The notes under the pieces are model-generated. The model saw nothing but the letters and a program-made list of their open reading frames with translations, had not been told where the DNA came from and searched no databases. Below are positions 9,908-19,526 of a DNA stretch of 54,541 nt, one piece after another. Both the position numbers and the translations under genes were made by a program. The stretch comes from a virus: the IMG/VR virus record IMGVR_UViG_3300022602_000128, positions 1 to 54,541 of that record. One strand, given 5' to 3'. Position 1 is the stretch's first letter, and every line of letters starts with the position of its first letter.

Positions 9908-10750
9908 ATGTCTGAGCAACAATCAAACCCTTTAGCCAACTTCTTTCGTCAGCCCGCAATCTACATCAAACTGCCCAGTGGGGGCAAATGGTGGAAAGAC
10001 GGCAGTTTGGAACTGACTGTGACCGGGGAAATAGGGATTTATCCCATGACCACGAAAGATGAAATAACACTAAAAACACCCGACGCACTAATGAATGGTC
10101 AGGGTGTAGTGGATGTTATTCAAAGTTGTGTGCCATCAATTAAAAATGCGTGGGATATGCCCAGTATTGATGTGGATGCAGTACTTATTGCCATACGCAT
10201 TGCCAGTTATGGTGAAAACATGGAGTTTGAAAGCACTTGCCCGCATTGCAATGAAGAAAACAAACACGAGATTGATCTCAAAGGGCCACTAAGTGGAATC
10301 CGATCACCGGACTACAGCCAAACAGTAGTATACAAGACATTGAAAATCAAATTGCACCCACAGAACTATTATGCAGTTAATAGATCCAATCGAGTTAACT
10401 TTGAGGAACAAAAGATATCCGACGCACTGAACATGGGCAAAGATGTCGATCCCGAAGTCAAAGTCAAGTATTTGACTGAGAGCATGAGCAGACTAATCGA
10501 ATTGGGCTTGGAATCAATAACTGCCAGTGTGGAGTATATTGAGATGGAAGATGGTGCTAGGATTGACAACAAGGCGCATATCAAGGACTTCTTTAAAAAT
10601 GCCGAAGCCAGCGTGGTGCGTTTAGTCCAAGACAAACTCAGCGATCTAGCAGAACAAAGCAAGATACAACCAGCAAAACTACAATGCATGGAGTGCACAA
10701 AACCCTATGAAGTGGCATTGTTGTTTGATTACTCTAATTTTTTCGGTTAA
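9908..10750 (+). CDS. 26: gp26-like baseplate hub/tail assembly protein (T4_baseplate family)
   Basis: A 280-residue protein of the T4 gp26 family, which takes part in assembling the central baseplate hub. Typical features are the N-terminal IYIKLPSGGKWW (about 17-28) and the EITLKTPDALMNGQGVVDVIQSCVP block. Two CxxC knuckles, C111/C114 (CPHC) and C260/C263 (CMEC), could bind one zinc. The gene has its own late promoter and a clear AGGAT ribosome site. Its 3' end carries a T TTT TTC heptamer and overlaps a small ORF in the -1 frame, so most ribosomes would make the 280-aa form and some a 356-aa fusion. Being divergent from the tape measure gene, it may serve as that protein's chaperone in the manner of lambda gpG/gpGT (inference). 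Confidence 0.82.
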   Translation: MSEQQSNPLANFFRQPAIYIKLPSGGKWWKDGSLELTVTGEIGIYPMTTKDEITLKTPDALMNGQGVVDVIQSCVPSIKNAWDMPSIDVDAVLIAIRIASYGENMEFESTCPHCNEENKHEIDLKGPLSGIRSPDYSQTVVYKTLKIKLHPQNYYAVNRSNRVNFEEQKISDALNMGKDVDPEVKVKYLTESMSRLIELGLESITASVEYIEMEDGARIDNKAHIKDFFKNAEASVVRLVQDKLSDLAEQSKIQPAKLQCMECTKPYEVALLFDYSNFFG

Positions 10751-10825
10751 GGCTTTTATCAATAACTGATGATGCCGAACTCATTAAGTTCTTGGAACGA
10801 TATGAGAAACAGGTAAAAGCCTTAA
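10738..10825 (+). promoter_or_regulatory. Predicted -1 ribosomal frameshift signal
   Basis: Slippery heptamer T TTT TTC at 10738-10744, in the correct X XXY YYZ register for the gp26 frame (codons TTT and TTC at residues 278-279). The gp26 stop TAA lies at 10748-10750. Bases 10747-10758 are perfectly complementary to 10814-10825 (12 bp), with smaller nested pairings inside (10780-10784 with 10802-10806, and GTTC/GAAC within). The -1 frame has a stop at 10735-10737, so it opens exactly at the heptamer. The helix starts only two bases beyond the heptamer, closer than usual, so its lowest pairs would have to melt. Confidence 0.65.
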
Positions 10826-10977
10826 AGCATGAAGCACTTACTATGGCATGGCATATGAGAGGTGGGTTAACTTATGCCGAAGTGATGTCAATAGGAGATC
10901 AAGAAAGAACTATTATATCAGATATAGTCAAAGATCACATAGAAGCAACTAAAAAATCAGGACTTCCTTTCTTCTGA
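10744..10977 (+). CDS. gp51/chaperone-like extension, made by -1 frameshift from gp26
   Basis: In the -1 frame after the heptamer there are 77 codons. They encode a helical, charged segment with a WHMRGGLTYAEVM block and a TKKSGLPFF end, resembling the C-terminal domain that frameshifting adds to phage tail-assembly chaperones. If translated alone it has no good start: only a TTG at 10792 (61 aa, no ribosome site) or an ATG at about 10841 (44-46 aa). The simplest reading is a 356-aa gp26-extension fusion. Position right after gp26 corresponds to T4 gene 51, a hub assembly factor, but this ORF is much shorter than T4 gp51 (249 aa). The alternative is a separate small protein from an unusual start. 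Confidence 0.62.
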   Translation, partial: RLRLLSITDDAELIKFLERYEKQVKALKHEALTMAWHMRGGLTYAEVMSIGDQERTIISDIVKDHIEATKKSGLPFF

Positions 10978-11016
10978 TTTTCTTTTCAATTCTTTGAGTT
11001 TGTTATGTTCCTTAAG

Positions 11017-11464
11017 AGATGTCTAAAGACATCTGTTGTTGCGCTATCGCTTACAACATTATTCTTTAATTATTGATTAAAAACTTTACGAAGTAAAGTA
11101 AAGGCCATTCATCCAGAACAAGCAGTCACACTTTGCCCGATAAACGGGCAAAAAATGATTTCATCCGAGACGCACAATCATCAGCGTTAGGGCATTGCAG
11201 AGGCGGTTGACCTGTACCTCGAGCCCCGTCTTTTATTCAACGGCAGTTAATATAATATACGCAGACATACTATATTAACCTGTGGGAGTTACCCACTCAT
11301 TTAGCCTTGGTTTAATTCTTTTCAAATAGCAAAACCGGTTGTATGAAGGCATATCCGATCGTCGTCCTGTTAAGGATAGTTGCTAAGTGCTCTGTACGGC
11401 GCAGAGTCTTCCGTCCGAGTGACACGTAGTCCTCTTGTCTTGGGCACACGTTTTTAACTTGTGC
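11017..11464 (+). ncRNA. Candidate large structured RNA (unclassified)
   Basis: This non-coding stretch of about 490 bases (10978-11469) contains many perfect hairpins in close order: 11017-11023/11028-11034; 11035-11039/11053-11057 enclosing GCG/CGC; 11083-11089/11093-11099; 11132-11139/11145-11152; a nested arm GGGC 11190-11193 with GCCC 11223-11226 around GAGG 11200-11203 with CCTC 11217-11220; 11246-11254/11271-11279; 11282-11286/11292-11296; 11309-11313/11332-11336; 11352-11356/11374-11378; 11390-11394/11402-11406; 11444-11448/11460-11464. G-U pairs can extend two helices only if the plus strand is the RNA, which weakly favours that strand. Size and context recall the phage-borne GOLLD and ROOL ornate RNAs, but neither was recognised by sequence. 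No promoter was identified; read-through from the gp26 promoter is possible. Confidence 0.5.
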
Positions 11465-11469
11465 GAGTC

Positions 11470-11904
11470 TTAACCGTTTAATTTGTTTAGTATGTGGGAG
11501 CCATGGACACGGACTTGTATATGTCCGTTATAGTAATCTGTAGATTCTAATACTCTATTTGTAAATTGCTCGCGGGCTTCAATGTAACTACATTCTGCCT
11601 TGCTTTTGCAATAATAGAGTATTTCTCTGGTAAAGTTTTCGGTGCCATGAGTTTGAACGTCTTTGTTGAGTTGGTCGTTAGAGCCATAATATGTAAGCCA
11701 ATCGGAATCTACTTTTGATCGTATTTTCTTCTTTTTCTTGGTGCCGTTCTTGAGTTTTACAGTTTTGTAAGATGTTTTTGCGAATTTCGCTAGTTTTTTG
11801 CCTATGTACTTTTTGCCAGATAGATTATTAGTGATAAGATACACAAAACCCACACAGTCTTCGGGAAGTTCCTGTACAGGTGAGTTCTGAAATATCCATG
11901 TCAT
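11470..11904 (-). CDS. GIY-YIG endonuclease-like protein
   Basis: A 144-residue single-domain protein. GFVYLITNNLSGKKYIGKK (about 19-37) gives the GIY-YIG core, and later residues (the EAREQF segment) include the Glu expected for metal binding. A lysine-rich loop (NGTKKKKKIRSK) and a WLTYYGSN block precede it, a form seen in Seg-like and hypothetical phage nucleases. It lacks an obvious NUMOD DNA-binding tail, so specificity is unclear. It lies downstream of gp46 in the same direction, and its stop codon adjoins the structured non-coding region, which could be its target or co-mobilised neighbour (inference). The role may be homing, or repair and resolution. Confidence 0.78.
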   Translation of the reverse strand: MTWIFQNSPVQELPEDCVGFVYLITNNLSGKKYIGKKLAKFAKTSYKTVKLKNGTKKKKKIRSKVDSDWLTYYGSNDQLNKDVQTHGTENFTREILYYCKSKAECSYIEAREQFTNRVLESTDYYNGHIQVRVHGSHILNKLNG

Positions 11905-11939
11905 GTAATATAGTTATGATTGTTGGAGCCATGATTAAA

Positions 11940-13709
11940 TTATTTTATTTCAATATCAGTATTATATGTTGTGAATCCGTTTTCTTTGACAACGTGCAGG
12001 GTATTATGAACCCGTCCTGCCAATTCATCCTTGTGAGATACCAACCAAATACTCTTGTTGGCATCCCGGCTCATCTTTTTAAGTATCCCGAGACTGTTTT
12101 CAACCCCACTGCTGTCCATTCCGCTGTCAATAAGTTCGTCAATGAATAACAGGTTAATGGGCTGGTATAGGCTTTCCCATACATCACGGAAACTCCAACT
12201 CAGGGATAAGATCAAACGATTGCGCTCTCCCCTACTCAAATTGTCAAAGTCCAGTTCTCTGCCCAGTTCGCTGATACTAACAGTCAAATCGTTATTGAAC
12301 TTGACAGTGTGCGGTAGGCCTATGCGATCTAAGTATTGCCCCAATCGTGCATTTAGATAACTTAAATTTTGATCAATGATACGTTTGCGAATAAACGAAT
12401 CCTTGTTAGTCAGTAACTTGTGTAAGAACTCTTGATGCTGTTTAACACGATCAAGTTCATTCATTAAGTCGTAATTGACATCTTCCAGTGCTTGTTCACT
12501 CATGTCCTTGATCTGTTCAGCATAGGGGTCAGATTCTTCTTGCTTGGCAGTTAACTGTGCAAGAATACTGCCCATACTACTTCTATGTTCAAATGCATCT
12601 GATTCATTGGTATAGTAAACTGTGGGCTTATCGCCTAGTTCGCCCAATGCAGTCAACGCCTCGGTATTCTCCAGCCATTGCGTATGGGCCGCAAGTGCAT
12701 TGAGTGCAGTGTCGCTAATTTGCCTTTGCTTGTCCTCAAGCATTTGTTCATGATTGTCGTCATGCAAGTCCTGTCCACAAGCATGGCACTGGTGATTTTG
12801 CAAGGCCTCTAGTTCGGCCCGTAGTCGAGCCAACACTTTGTCTTCTCTGGCTTGGTCACGTTCGTTTTGTGCAATGTAACCTTTGATCTTGTCTATTTCG
12901 GCTTTCTTCTTGTTGTACTCATTTAACTTTTGGTGGGCCACTAGTTCTGATTCAATGTCTAAGGCATTTAGTTCGTCAAATGACGCAACCAACTTGTCTA
13001 AATCTTCGTCTTTCTTTCTAAGCCAAAGCGTTTGCCTGCGCTTTAGATTTTCTATTTGTTCTTGTATACGTGCATTGGCATCAGTTACTGCTTTGATTCT
13101 ATACTCCTCTTGAGTAATAGCATCCTTGGTAACTTTGACTTGTTCTTTAAGCAATTCTGCTTTTTCACTTAACAGTGTAATACCCAATAACTGCTCAATG
13201 ATAGTTCTTTGATCATTGGCTTTTAACGATAAAAACGGTTCAGTATAGGTGTTTAAAGCCACAATGTGTTTAAACATGTCATGGCTCATGCCCAACATAC
13301 GTTCTATCTCTGCTTGCGTTTCTCGGCTATCGCCCTGTGCTTCGTCTGTGATCTCTTTTTCTTGATCGTTCACAAAGAATCGCATAACATTGGGTTTACG
13401 CCCACGTTCAATTCTATAGGTTGCACCATCTTTCTCAAAGTCAATAGTCACCATCATACCTTTGGTATTGGTTTTATTGATCAAGTTGTCTTTCTTGATA
13501 TTGGTTAGAGCATTGCCGTAAAGGGCATAACTCAATGCATTGATAATAGTTGTTTTACCAGTACCATTGCGTGCACCCGAATCATCTCCACCCAAGTCCA
13601 AGTTTTCACCCAGCACCAGAGTTAAATCATTGCGATCAAAACTGACGGCTTGTGTGGAGTTACCCACACTCATAAAGTTTCTAACTGTTAAATCTTTTAT
13701 TTTAAACAT
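11940..13709 (-). CDS. 46: Recombination nuclease ATPase subunit (gp46, Rad50/SbcC-like)
   Basis: A 589-residue SMC-type ATPase that pairs with gp47 to resect DNA ends for recombination-dependent replication and host DNA breakdown. Walker A is GARNGTGKTT near residue 45-54; the ABC signature is in LSRGERNRLILSLSW near the C-terminus, followed by Walker B LLFIDELIDSGMD and the WLVSHKDEL switch. Between them are coiled-coil arms with a zinc hook C308-H-A-C311. The length matches T4 gp46 (560 aa). Its start codon overlaps the stop of the gp47 gene upstream, indicating coupled translation. In T4 these genes are early/middle; no late box was seen here. Confidence 0.95.
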   Translation of the reverse strand: MFKIKDLTVRNFMSVGNSTQAVSFDRNDLTLVLGENLDLGGDDSGARNGTGKTTIINALSYALYGNALTNIKKDNLINKTNTKGMMVTIDFEKDGATYRIERGRKPNVMRFFVNDQEKEITDEAQGDSRETQAEIERMLGMSHDMFKHIVALNTYTEPFLSLKANDQRTIIEQLLGITLLSEKAELLKEQVKVTKDAITQEEYRIKAVTDANARIQEQIENLKRRQTLWLRKKDEDLDKLVASFDELNALDIESELVAHQKLNEYNKKKAEIDKIKGYIAQNERDQAREDKVLARLRAELEALQNHQCHACGQDLHDDNHEQMLEDKQRQISDTALNALAAHTQWLENTEALTALGELGDKPTVYYTNESDAFEHRSSMGSILAQLTAKQEESDPYAEQIKDMSEQALEDVNYDLMNELDRVKQHQEFLHKLLTNKDSFIRKRIIDQNLSYLNARLGQYLDRIGLPHTVKFNNDLTVSISELGRELDFDNLSRGERNRLILSLSWSFRDVWESLYQPINLLFIDELIDSGMDSSGVENSLGILKKMSRDANKSIWLVSHKDELAGRVHNTLHVVKENGFTTYNTDIEIK

Positions 13710-15769: not shown

Positions 15770-16642
15770 ATGGCATCTACATCTGGATACGAAGTTGATT
15801 TATCGCAAGCCGAACCGCAGTTTTTTGGAACATCTGGCGGATCGCAACAAACGCCAATCAACACAGTCACTCCCACAACATCTAGACTATCAGCATCAGG
15901 TCTGCGTCAGGGCGGCGCACCGTCGGCAGCGATTCAGGGTGCCGGACCCAATGTTGGTGTTACGATAACAACTCCGCACAATGCAAATAACCCAACCAAT
16001 TCTGATTGGCGAGTACGTATAAGTATTCCCACTGGAAATGGTATATTTTATAACGATCCCGATAATCAGTTACAACAAATACTAAAGAGTACCAATGGTG
16101 TTATATTCCCCTATACCCCCTCTGTTACAGTAACCCATTCGGCAAGGTATCAAGAACAGGCATTGACTCACAACAATTATAAAAACTATTTTTATGAGGG
16201 ATCGGGTGTAGATGCTATTACAATTTCCGGTGATTTTACGGTGCAAAACCCATCAGATGGGTTATACTTGCTTGCGGCTATCTACTTTTTTAGAAGTGCA
16301 ACAAAAATGTTTTTTGGCGGAGATTTCTTAGCCGGCAATCCCCCACCTGTGGTATTCTTAGATGGTTATGGAGATTTTTATTTTCCGCATGTAAGTTGTG
16401 TTGTTACCAGTTTCCAACACACGCTACCGCCAGATGTTGATTACGTGGAAATTCCCTATTCACAAAATATATCTGCTTCAGTGAGAAGCACAACTAGTAA
16501 TTTAAAGACTCGCTTGCCCACAACCAGTCAACTGTCAGTTACTGTACAACCAATCTACAGTAGAAATAACATTCATAATAATATGACACTAACTGATTTT
16601 AGCCGAGGCGCTCTATTAAGTGGTCATGGAGGATTCCTATAA
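15770..16642 (+). CDS. Baseplate tail-tube cap/initiator-like protein (gp48/gp54-like)
   Basis: 290 residues from the ATG at 15770; an earlier in-frame ATG at 15725 precedes the late box and is unlikely. The C-terminal half has the tube-fold-like run ITISGDFTVQNPSDGLYLL...AIYFFRSATKMFFGG (about 165-195), then PPPVVFLDGYG and VVTSFQHTLPPDVDYVEIP, typical of T4-like gp48/gp54 proteins that join the tail tube to the baseplate. The exact gene (48 versus 54) was not resolved. Near the N-terminus is SGYEVDLSQAEPQF, repeated in the hub-like protein two genes on. Its stop codon overlaps the gp53 start (TAATG). Confidence 0.55.
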   Translation: MASTSGYEVDLSQAEPQFFGTSGGSQQTPINTVTPTTSRLSASGLRQGGAPSAAIQGAGPNVGVTITTPHNANNPTNSDWRVRISIPTGNGIFYNDPDNQLQQILKSTNGVIFPYTPSVTVTHSARYQEQALTHNNYKNYFYEGSGVDAITISGDFTVQNPSDGLYLLAAIYFFRSATKMFFGGDFLAGNPPPVVFLDGYGDFYFPHVSCVVTSFQHTLPPDVDYVEIPYSQNISASVRSTTSNLKTRLPTTSQLSVTVQPIYSRNNIHNNMTLTDFSRGALLSGHGGFL

Positions 16643-16953
16643 TGGCAACAGTAACTTATAACAAAACAAGTCCCTATTACAATACGCCCACGTGGGGCAA
16701 CGGACAATTCTTGGATTTAATTAATTATACTCCGGTTAGCAAAAAAGCCGATGACGTATTGTTTACCATCAATAAGATATATGAATATCGCCCGGACTTG
16801 TTGGCTTTTGACTTGTACGGTGATAGCGGTTTATGGTGGGTGTTTAAATCACGCAACCCCAATACCCTAGACGATCCAATATTTGATTTTCAAGCAGGTA
16901 TACAAATTTATGTACCGCAAAAAAATACATTAATCGCTAATCTAGGAATATAA
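16642..16953 (+). CDS. 53: Baseplate wedge protein (gp53-like)
   Basis: A 103-residue wedge component. The family's pattern is visible: YYNTPTWGNGQFLDL near the start, a Tyr/Arg/Pro block (IYEYRPDLLAFDLYGDSGLWWVF), NPNTLDDPIFDFQAGIQIYVP, and a short end. T4 gp53 is longer (196 aa), and its C-terminal part has a LysM-like fold matching this region, so this is a compact form. In T4 gp53 closes wedges into the six-fold baseplate. Translation is coupled to both neighbours by TAATG overlaps, and position next to gp5 matches T4 order (53-5). Confidence 0.82.
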   Translation: MATVTYNKTSPYYNTPTWGNGQFLDLINYTPVSKKADDVLFTINKIYEYRPDLLAFDLYGDSGLWWVFKSRNPNTLDDPIFDFQAGIQIYVPQKNTLIANLGI

Positions 16954-19526
16954 TGCCAAGTAGCATCCCGCAACAACAATTCGCCGCGGCACAAAAAGCG
17001 CAAGCCCAATCACAAGGTACTGCTGGTGATGCAGTTACGTCCGGCTACGCTGTTGATCTAAGTCAAGCAGAACCTCAATTCTTAGACAATATAAGCAAGC
17101 CTCCATCAGGTGATCCTTCGTTTGACACTGGATCGGGCAGTAACGACACTTGGGACGACTCTGCCGAAAATGCACCCACAGAACAACCTGATCCAGTAGT
17201 AATTGGCGGACCCAATTATGCAAAATCTAACCTAACTCCCAATCCACTGGGTAATTATTCAAGTTACACATACAATTTAAGTTTGCACTTGTTGTCAAGA
17301 GATGATTACAATGCCATAAACACATCTCCTACTACGTTTAAGCCTACTAGAAACTTAATAAGCGAAGCCAATAGATATAACATAACACTGGATGATAGTA
17401 ATATTGGTTCTGGCACGTACCGTGATCCAAATTTTACCGATGACTTTTATTTCGATAATTTGAAAATGACTACAATTATCGGTATGAATTCTCAGACTCG
17501 CGGCTCCAATGATGTGCAAATAAGTTTTACCATAATTGAGCCCTATGGAATGACATTGATGGATAGGATATTAGACATCAATAACAATGAAATAAATGGC
17601 AAAAATTATTTAGAATCCCCCTACCTATTGGAAATAAATTTCTTGGGCGCCGATGATTCTGGCGTCATGCAGACCATATACAATCAAACCAAATGGTTGC
17701 CCATTAAACTTGTTAACTTTAAAATAAAAGCATCTGTCAAGGGCGCCGAGTATCAAATTGAAGCAGTACCCTATAATCACGTGGCACATCTTGAAACATT
17801 GCAATCAATCAAAGCAAATTTTGAAGTTACTGCCAGCAAAGTATCTGAATATTTTGACAGCACATCTGATTCTAATGCTACATCTCAAGCAGATGCCGCA
17901 GTCAAACAACAGTCCGACGACAGCAAACGCCAACCAACCAGTAACCCAACTAACAATCAACCAGCACAGACTCGACAACCCACAACCACAGAACCCACTA
18001 CAATTAAAACAAAAAGTTTTACTGCCGCATACAATGCATGGATGCAGGCCGAACAGAAGAATGGTAATGTGGGCGTCGCGGATCAAATTGAATTTGTAAT
18101 TGATCCGGCCATAGCAGATTCCAACATTGTTGAACCCAAGAAAAACTCTTCAAAGAAAGTTCCTGCCACTGATGCAAAAACTGCGGCACAATCCACAAGC
18201 CCCCAAAGCGGTGCCACTCCGGCAACTACTGCAAATTTTGCATCAACAATTCACTCGTTGAATGTGGGCACAACAATCAAGGATGTGCTCAACTTGGTAA
18301 TACCCAACAGCAAGTATGTGTTGGATCAGTTAACTGATCCATCGACTCAAGCAAAAGAAACCAACACCCAAGCAGGCGATACTACCAAACTAAAAGATTC
18401 CAGCAAGCCCTTGAATTGGTACAAGATAGTGCCCAAAGTTACTTTGCTTGATTATGATAATATACGCAATACTTGGGGCAAGAAGGTAACATTCTACGTC
18501 CAGCAGTACAAGATATATAACAACCGTGATGACCGAGCGCCAAAAGCATCGCCCCCTCCACCAACCAAGGACTATCAATACATATACACCGGTCAAAATA
18601 CTGAGGTAATAGATTTTAATATAGAATTCAATGCTTTGTATTTTACGGCAATTAACGTTGACAAAGGAAAAACCTCTGCAACTGCCGGACCACAACAAAA
18701 AAATGATGATGCCAATCTAGCCGATAAAAGAGATATTCAAAGCAGTAAGCATATTGATCCTCCAAGATTTGAGCCAGTATCACAAACACAACAAACTTCT
18801 GCTGGTGGATCTGTGGACAAAAGCGATACTGTGAATAGCCAAAGTGTAGTGCAAAGTATCTATACTAGTGCACAGGGCGATATGATCAATCTGAAAATGA
18901 ATATAATCGGAGATCCGGAATTCATTAAACAAGACGACATCTTTGTTAATCCCGGAGTGATCAATGCAGCCTCCAATTCCAGCACTCCGTCTAACTATGT
19001 GCCACAGACACAAAGTATCGTTATGGATAACGGTGAGGTTTATTGTACTGTTACTTTTAAAACTCCCCGAGATTTTAATGATGCAACGGGACAATATTTA
19101 GATACTTCGGGCAAATATAAAATTAGTGCATTTAGTGGATACTACCGTATCAACACTGTTGAGAGTGAATTCAGAGGCGGTAAGTTTGTACAAAAATTAG
19201 ACTTGATTAGGTACCCAAATCAAACGTTTGCCGGTGGTGGCGCCGGGTCTTCCGAATTTGCGGCAACTGATCCCAGAAGACTAGACAATCCCTCAATTGT
19301 CAATGCTCCATCCTCTAGTAGCAAGGTCTCGGGAACATCTGTTGATGCGCCACCAAATGCACAACTAGTAAATTCAGCCCCGCCAAAAGTGCTTGACGAC
19401 ACTGCGTCAAGACCATTGCAACTAACACCCAAATCAGTTATCGGATCAAGCGTTGCTCTCCCGACCAATACTAACTTGCAAAATATTGTTTCAAATGGAG
19501 CAGTGGTTCCGATCGGTAACAACTAA
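16953..19526 (+). CDS. Baseplate hub-like structural protein (possible gp27 equivalent)
   Basis: An 857-residue protein immediately upstream of the gp5-like gene. It begins with a Q/A-rich stretch and SGYAVDLSQAEPQF (about 30-43). Residues about 90-290 form a beta-rich region (YTYNLSLHLLSRDDY, SFTIIEPYGMTLMDRI, WLPIKLVNFKIKASVKGAEY) resembling half of a gpD/gp27-type hub. A low-complexity Q/T/P/N linker follows (about 300-350), a second beta-rich region (about 480-770) with GDMINLKMNIIGDPEFIKQDD and KYKISAFSGYYRINTVESEF, and a disordered end. Position before the cell-puncturing protein suggests the hub trimer that carries it; T4 gp27 has 391 aa. The assignment is inferred from place and texture, not from close similarity. 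Confidence 0.5.
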   Translation: MPSSIPQQQFAAAQKAQAQSQGTAGDAVTSGYAVDLSQAEPQFLDNISKPPSGDPSFDTGSGSNDTWDDSAENAPTEQPDPVVIGGPNYAKSNLTPNPLGNYSSYTYNLSLHLLSRDDYNAINTSPTTFKPTRNLISEANRYNITLDDSNIGSGTYRDPNFTDDFYFDNLKMTTIIGMNSQTRGSNDVQISFTIIEPYGMTLMDRILDINNNEINGKNYLESPYLLEINFLGADDSGVMQTIYNQTKWLPIKLVNFKIKASVKGAEYQIEAVPYNHVAHLETLQSIKANFEVTASKVSEYFDSTSDSNATSQADAAVKQQSDDSKRQPTSNPTNNQPAQTRQPTTTEPTTIKTKSFTAAYNAWMQAEQKNGNVGVADQIEFVIDPAIADSNIVEPKKNSSKKVPATDAKTAAQSTSPQSGATPATTANFASTIHSLNVGTTIKDVLNLVIPNSKYVLDQLTDPSTQAKETNTQAGDTTKLKDSSKPLNWYKIVPKVTLLDYDNIRNTWGKKVTFYVQQYKIYNNRDDRAPKASPPPPTKDYQYIYTGQNTEVIDFNIEFNALYFTAINVDKGKTSATAGPQQKNDDANLADKRDIQSSKHIDPPRFEPVSQTQQTSAGGSVDKSDTVNSQSVVQSIYTSAQGDMINLKMNIIGDPEFIKQDDIFVNPGVINAASNSSTPSNYVPQTQSIVMDNGEVYCTVTFKTPRDFNDATGQYLDTSGKYKISAFSGYYRINTVESEFRGGKFVQKLDLIRYPNQTFAGGGAGSSEFAATDPRRLDNPSIVNAPSSSSKVSGTSVDAPPNAQLVNSAPPKVLDDTASRPLQLTPKSVIGSSVALPTNTNLQNIVSNGAVVPIGNN

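Follow-up and report, generated by a model that had tools for sequence, protein, structure and literature searches.

A structured RNA of jumbo myoviruses carries the Polynucleobacter-1 motif (RF01718) as its 5′ third and a pair of co-varying twin elements

GOLLD and ROOL are phage-linked RNAs, and the RNA described here resembles them in being a large, ornate phage RNA so far without a function. GOLLD, ROOL and also OLE have been reported to be homo-oligomers (PMC12286853). Polynucleobacter-1 (RF01718) stems from a 2010 survey (Weinberg et al., PMC2864571), in which the table places the family in Burkholderiales and in fresh water/estuary, does not mention phages and marks it only 'y y ?'. Among the literature searched, no other publication mentioned the family by name or accession. 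The window analysed here (the whole stretch of viral DNA, 54,541 nt) has a gene order similar to that of the gp55-gp47-gp46 / gp26-gp51 region of the RaK2/PA5oct/Atu_ph07 type; judged by the neighbouring proteins, the nearest isolated relatives are the jumbo phages PA5oct, Phosso and Atu_ph07 and the RaK2 group (gp46 40–50%, gp26 28–33%). In regions of this type, however, no RNA was detectable by profile or covariance model, and several have gene-free gaps of 0.5–1 kb at this place.

A cmscan search of the whole 54.5-kb window returned RF01718 as the sole Rfam match, at 11324–11469 on the minus strand. The score of 95.7 bits (E 2.1e-19) exceeds the curated cut-off of 37 over the full model, all 141 positions being matched as in the bacterial copies, and the consensus helices of the family are kept with compensatory changes (helices 3–8 of the pair count). 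No other Rfam family was found at E up to 5 on either strand of 10700–11950, and ARAGORN detected no tRNA or tmRNA. GOLLD, ROOL, HEARO, group I intron and tmRNA identities were rejected by the same covariance-model search, so the likeness to GOLLD and ROOL suggested by a sequence-only reading of this stretch was not supported. That reading had also proposed an ornate structured RNA in the gene-free interval 10978–11469, with G-U pairs on the plus strand. The interval indeed has no ORF of 60 aa or more and folds better than dinucleotide shuffles (z −2.94 for minus, −2.74 for plus), and it encodes a real structured RNA on the minus strand. A U-G pair is fixed in 70/70 minus-strand sequences at A1 columns 360/372, and a G-U pair is present in 68/70 at columns 142/175; because these near-fixed pairs would be C-A mismatches on the plus strand, a plus-strand RNA is ruled out, and the strand is the one of the RF01718 match, opposite to that first proposed. 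The proposed limits also had to be moved: the supported structure starts at 11477, where it overlaps the final codons of the GIY-YIG gene, and ends at 11016, and 10978–11015 is spacer beyond it. The features are listed in Table 1.

Table 1. Positions of the RNA, its structural parts and the adjoining gene in the window
Feature	Position	Strand	Evidence
SegE-like GIY-YIG gene, directly 5′ of the RNA	11470..11904	-	PF19835, E 3.4e-33
Full structured RNA	11016..11477 (5′ end 11477, 3′ end 11016)	-	nhmmer profile spans about 170 contigs; supported helices at both ends
5′ domain, RF01718 Polynucleobacter-1	11324..11469	-	cmscan 95.7 bits, model 1–141
Long-range helix 1, ACGGU with GCCGU in a hairpin loop, pseudoknot; overlaps last SegE codons	11473..11477 with 11400-11396	-	5/5 pairs two-sided, 88.9% of cells paired
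Multiloop-closing helix 6	11327..11385: 11385-11380 with 11332-11327	-	98.8% paired, 5/6 pairs two-sided
Short pseudoknot helix 10, CCU with AGG	11305..11349: 11349-11347 with 11307-11305	-	3/3 two-sided, 90% paired
Long hairpin; loop 11265-11259 pairs with 11187-11182, kissing-type pseudoknot	11246..11279	-	helices 13–15: all 17 pairs two-sided, 94–96% paired
Compact pseudoknot: 11241-11237 with 11210-11206, crossing 11220-11216 with 11204-11200; plus helix 11227-11223 with 11193-11189	11189..11241	-	helices 16–18: 89–98% paired, 9/15 pairs with two-sided changes
Twin element 1, GGAUGAA, after CUC	11160..11166	-	same-letter covariation with element 2
Hairpin UUUUGCCC...GGGCAAAG between the twin elements	11131..11153	-	helices 19–20: 90–95% of cells paired, few two-sided changes
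Twin element 2, GGAUGAA, after UCU	11108..11114	-	same-letter covariation with element 1
3′-terminal hairpin AGAUGUCU...GACAUCUC	11016..11034	-	helix 21: 8/8 two-sided, 96.2% paired

Base pairs were derived from mutual information with background correction and were then counted directly on 70 sequences. The results showed that 93.7% of the cells of 96 pairs were standard, compared with 77.5% in shuffles, and that two-sided changes occurred in 73 pairs and 1045 cells, compared with 54.7 and 284 in shuffles; none of 500 shuffles reached any of these values, and the structural alignment thus bears out the compensatory changes for which the sequence-only reading had suggested looking. In slid-structure controls at most 43% of the cells were standard and 45 pairs had two-sided changes. 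The structure was read from the same 70 sequences, so this control favours it, but the two-sided changes are still numerous. Several of the supported helices form pseudoknots.

Viral contigs were scanned with the RF01718 core pattern, the SegE protein, a 3′-domain pattern and an iterated nhmmer profile. Homology was found to run past 141 nt: the profile detected the whole unit of ~460–470 nt in 172 loci, some overlapping in one contig, of which 121 were distinct at 93% identity, and part of it in about 50 more loci, some of them cut by contig ends. By the iterated profile, a further group of loci shares the 3′ part only. The about 170 viral contigs with the full ~460 nt belong to one jumbo-myovirus lineage, and 26 RF01718 matches in phage loci span all 141 model positions. 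Loci picked by the 3′ domain alone nearly all carry the RF01718 domain, implying that both parts are one unit. The RF01718 model stops at position 141, and its domain, the 5′ 146 nt, is only the first third of the RNA. The literature searched, including the main paper of the 2010 survey, gave no description of the remainder, of the twin covariation, of the paralogue with its different twins or of the ~600-nt bacterial homologues reported below. The isolated phages examined had no copy detectable by profile or covariance model. Gene-free gaps near gp46/gp26 were observed in the isolated jumbo phages BF (L342 5902-6706), PA5oct (L339 4517-5181), Phosso (L340 3759-4774) and XacN1 (L343 3353-3863); these gaps of 0.5–1 kb gave no profile match and could hold unrelated or diverged RNAs.

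Downstream of the RF01718 domain, a 7-nt element (RGAURAW) occurs twice, and the two copies were identical within the molecule in 118 of 121 RNAs, whereas 20 identical pairs were expected with shuffled partners (maximum 34). Over a tree from which the twin region was left out, about 49 changes of their sequence were counted. Columns 304/356 were G/G in 75 RNAs and A/A in 46, columns 308/360 were G/G in 81 and A/A in 40, neither pair was mixed in any of the 121 RNAs, and columns 310/362 were mixed in three. These same-letter pairs are among the strongest covariation signals in the RNA, the mutual information being equal to the full entropy at columns 304 and 308. Columns 304 and 356 changed 25 times each, and every independent pair that could be compared on supported branches showed both columns changing alike (17/17); the flanking CUC and UCU differed from each other in 121/121 RNAs. 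A third covarying segment was sought within the RNA and in its flanks (420 nt on the upstream and 250 nt on the downstream side), but columns outside the twins had a mutual information of at most 0.39; thus the search gave neither such a segment nor a cis partner strand close by. The twin element was not enriched on either strand in three whole phage genomes or in nearby flanks, a result that makes a target with many sites in the phage genome less likely. A search for a simple helix between the linkers preceding the twins gave no clear result. Small ORFs or bypassing at the twins were also considered (phage RGA-TRA resembles a codon followed by a stop); they were not upheld by eye, and the bacterial twins have no stop.

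The RNA shares its strand with genes for a gp55-like late sigma factor (phrog_12791, E 1.1e-80), gp47, gp46 and SegE, and gp51-gp26 is convergent. Among 179 loci with enough upstream sequence, SegE was present in 176 and adjoined the RNA in 163; in L003, L191 and L132 the RNA stands behind another gene and SegE was not found beside it. The RNA is kept in these three loci, demonstrating that it is independent of SegE and making it unlikely that it guides the GIY-YIG enzyme. A search upstream of the phage copy revealed no conserved promoter, and read-through from gp46-SegE is thus possible. The 'frameshifted assembly gene' that the sequence-only reading named as the other neighbour turned out to be gp26. 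The 3′ end of gp26 carries a U-UUU-UUC heptamer at 10738–10744, followed by the gp51 frame in −1 with no clear start of its own, and the N-TTTTTT run is kept in 138/139 distinct relatives. These sequences probably direct a programmed −1 frameshift giving a gp26-gp51 fusion, like lambda G/GT.

A second, diverged RNA was found in one 354-kb phage record (G1007:C1, 136495–137050, minus; L394 about 16490–17050), behind small genes and far from gp46. This paralogue contains GGATGAA twice and the main copy of the same phage AGATGAA twice. The difference disfavours one phage-wide protein that fixes the twin sequence and accords better with a separate target for each RNA.

In bacteria, RF01718 was found in 2/101 genomes when the family around a Zoogloea genome was searched, in 4/399 genomes of the order around it (one below the cut-off) and in 14/151 genomes (one below the cut-off) of a single genus, which is taken to be Polynucleobacter from its genome size of ~2 Mb and the name of the RNA family; in a genome-wide pattern scan of bacteria, none of the loci retrieved matched the profile significantly. 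The Burkholderiales chromosomal homologues are about 600 nt long and lie in small integrase-bearing elements. Besides the tyrosine integrase, these elements have a clamp-loader-like ATPase (phrog_168), DUF6641 and, on the 3′ side of the RNA, a small tyrosine recombinase. As regards a cis-regulatory position, the bacterial copies stand between DUF6641 and an integrase, before the latter, and the phage copies stand after genes, facing a convergent operon. A T4-late-promoter-like motif, TATAAATA or the variant TAAATAACT, was found ~60 nt upstream of most bacterial copies. The 3′ part of the bacterial RNA is laid out as ACTC-X, hairpin, AATCT-X, where X is, for example, AGCGAAAG, ATCAAAAG or AGAGAAAG, and the first 7 nt of the twins were identical in 16/20 and mismatched in 4/20. 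The phage 3′-domain covariance model weakly matched one bacterial copy at the correct place (E 0.14), and homology of the bacterial 3′ part therefore rests mainly on this layout and the aligned boxes. The compact Burkholderiales elements L346, L347 and L368–L387 resemble satellites of T4-type phages: their starts are T4-late-promoter-like, and they hold two tyrosine recombinases and DUF6641 together with a clamp-loader ATPase of phage type. Near one of them (L346 13978–14187, minus), a group I intron-like match scored 47.7 bits against a cut-off of 50.

We tentatively prefer, at somewhat less than even probability, the reading that this is a stand-alone trans-acting structured RNA of the jumbo myovirus, in which the RF01718 domain forms the 5′ third and the 3′ two-thirds would be a pseudoknotted platform on which one short element is displayed twice. 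The twins, probably single-stranded, would act as bivalent docking sites, so that each RNA engages a pair of identical partners. The product would then be a free RNA and not a UTR. It may be made late; as the phage promoter was not identified, this is suggested only by the late-promoter-like motif of the bacterial copies. Counted in favour of the stand-alone RNA were the pair covariation, the twin identity, a synteny that is fixed yet tolerates different 5′ neighbours, the second copy with different twins in G1007, and bacterial homologues that have the same twin architecture beside different genes. Counted against it were the lack of a conserved phage promoter, the failure to find a twin target, the mismatched bacterial twins, and the small variable set of the phage twins, mostly RGATRAW, which is not what a guide free to vary would show. 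The element may have a single target or a host target, the twins may contact each other symmetrically, or their role may lie at the DNA level.

The strongest alternative, although unlikely, is a cis-acting 3′-UTR element of the gp55-gp47-gp46-SegE operon that serves, for example, in mRNA 3′-end protection or in termination between convergent operons. It would be suited by the location of the RNA, which in most loci immediately follows SegE on the same strand and converges with gp51-gp26, and by the terminal hairpins, the overlap of the first helix strand with the SegE stop region in the window and the lack of a conserved promoter for the phage copy; however, the RNA is kept behind a different gene in L003, L191 and L132, the G1007 paralogue sits elsewhere, the bacterial copies are not behind this operon, and 450 nt with pseudoknots far exceeds what a terminator needs. 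It is distinctly improbable that the RNA is an RNA-only homo-oligomer, cage-like as GOLLD, ROOL and OLE may be, with the twins as protomer contacts. A large, ornate, phage-borne RNA with many tertiary contacts would be in keeping with the homo-oligomers reported for those three (PMC12286853), and like protomers could well meet through twins that are identical in each molecule, but there is no sequence relation, and Watson-Crick protomer contacts would give complementary, not same-letter, covariation. Lower still is the probability that the twins act in DNA, as direct repeats (iterons, a packaging or a recombination site) within a transcribed region: they are short, stand about 52–60 nt from each other, agree within each locus but vary from locus to locus, and lie near recombination genes gp46/gp47 in phage and tyrosine recombinases in bacteria, but the 96 surrounding pairs show covariation at the RNA level, G-U pairs that fit one strand only included, and the spacing varies (59 vs 72 nt in bacteria). 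Least probable is concerted evolution (local conversion or template switching) in place of selection on identity, which would give self-consistent loci and differing paralogues as in G1007, but whose tracts would have to end each time at the same borders of repeats of only 7 nt, with the adjacent CUC and UCU never alike in 121 RNAs.

The preferred reading of a stand-alone RNA can be carried further, to a bivalent, self-specific recognition RNA common to jumbo phages and to integrative elements that may live on them, whose twins have been rewritten together more than 20 times and differently in the paralogues of one genome; in this wider form it is rather doubtful. RF01718, listed since 2010 without a function, gains a full length, a phage home and a tertiary architecture, and the twins offer a sharp experimental handle on this RNA. 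That phages have this RNA core in common with chromosomal elements whose starts are late-promoter-like suggests that both take part in one step of infection.
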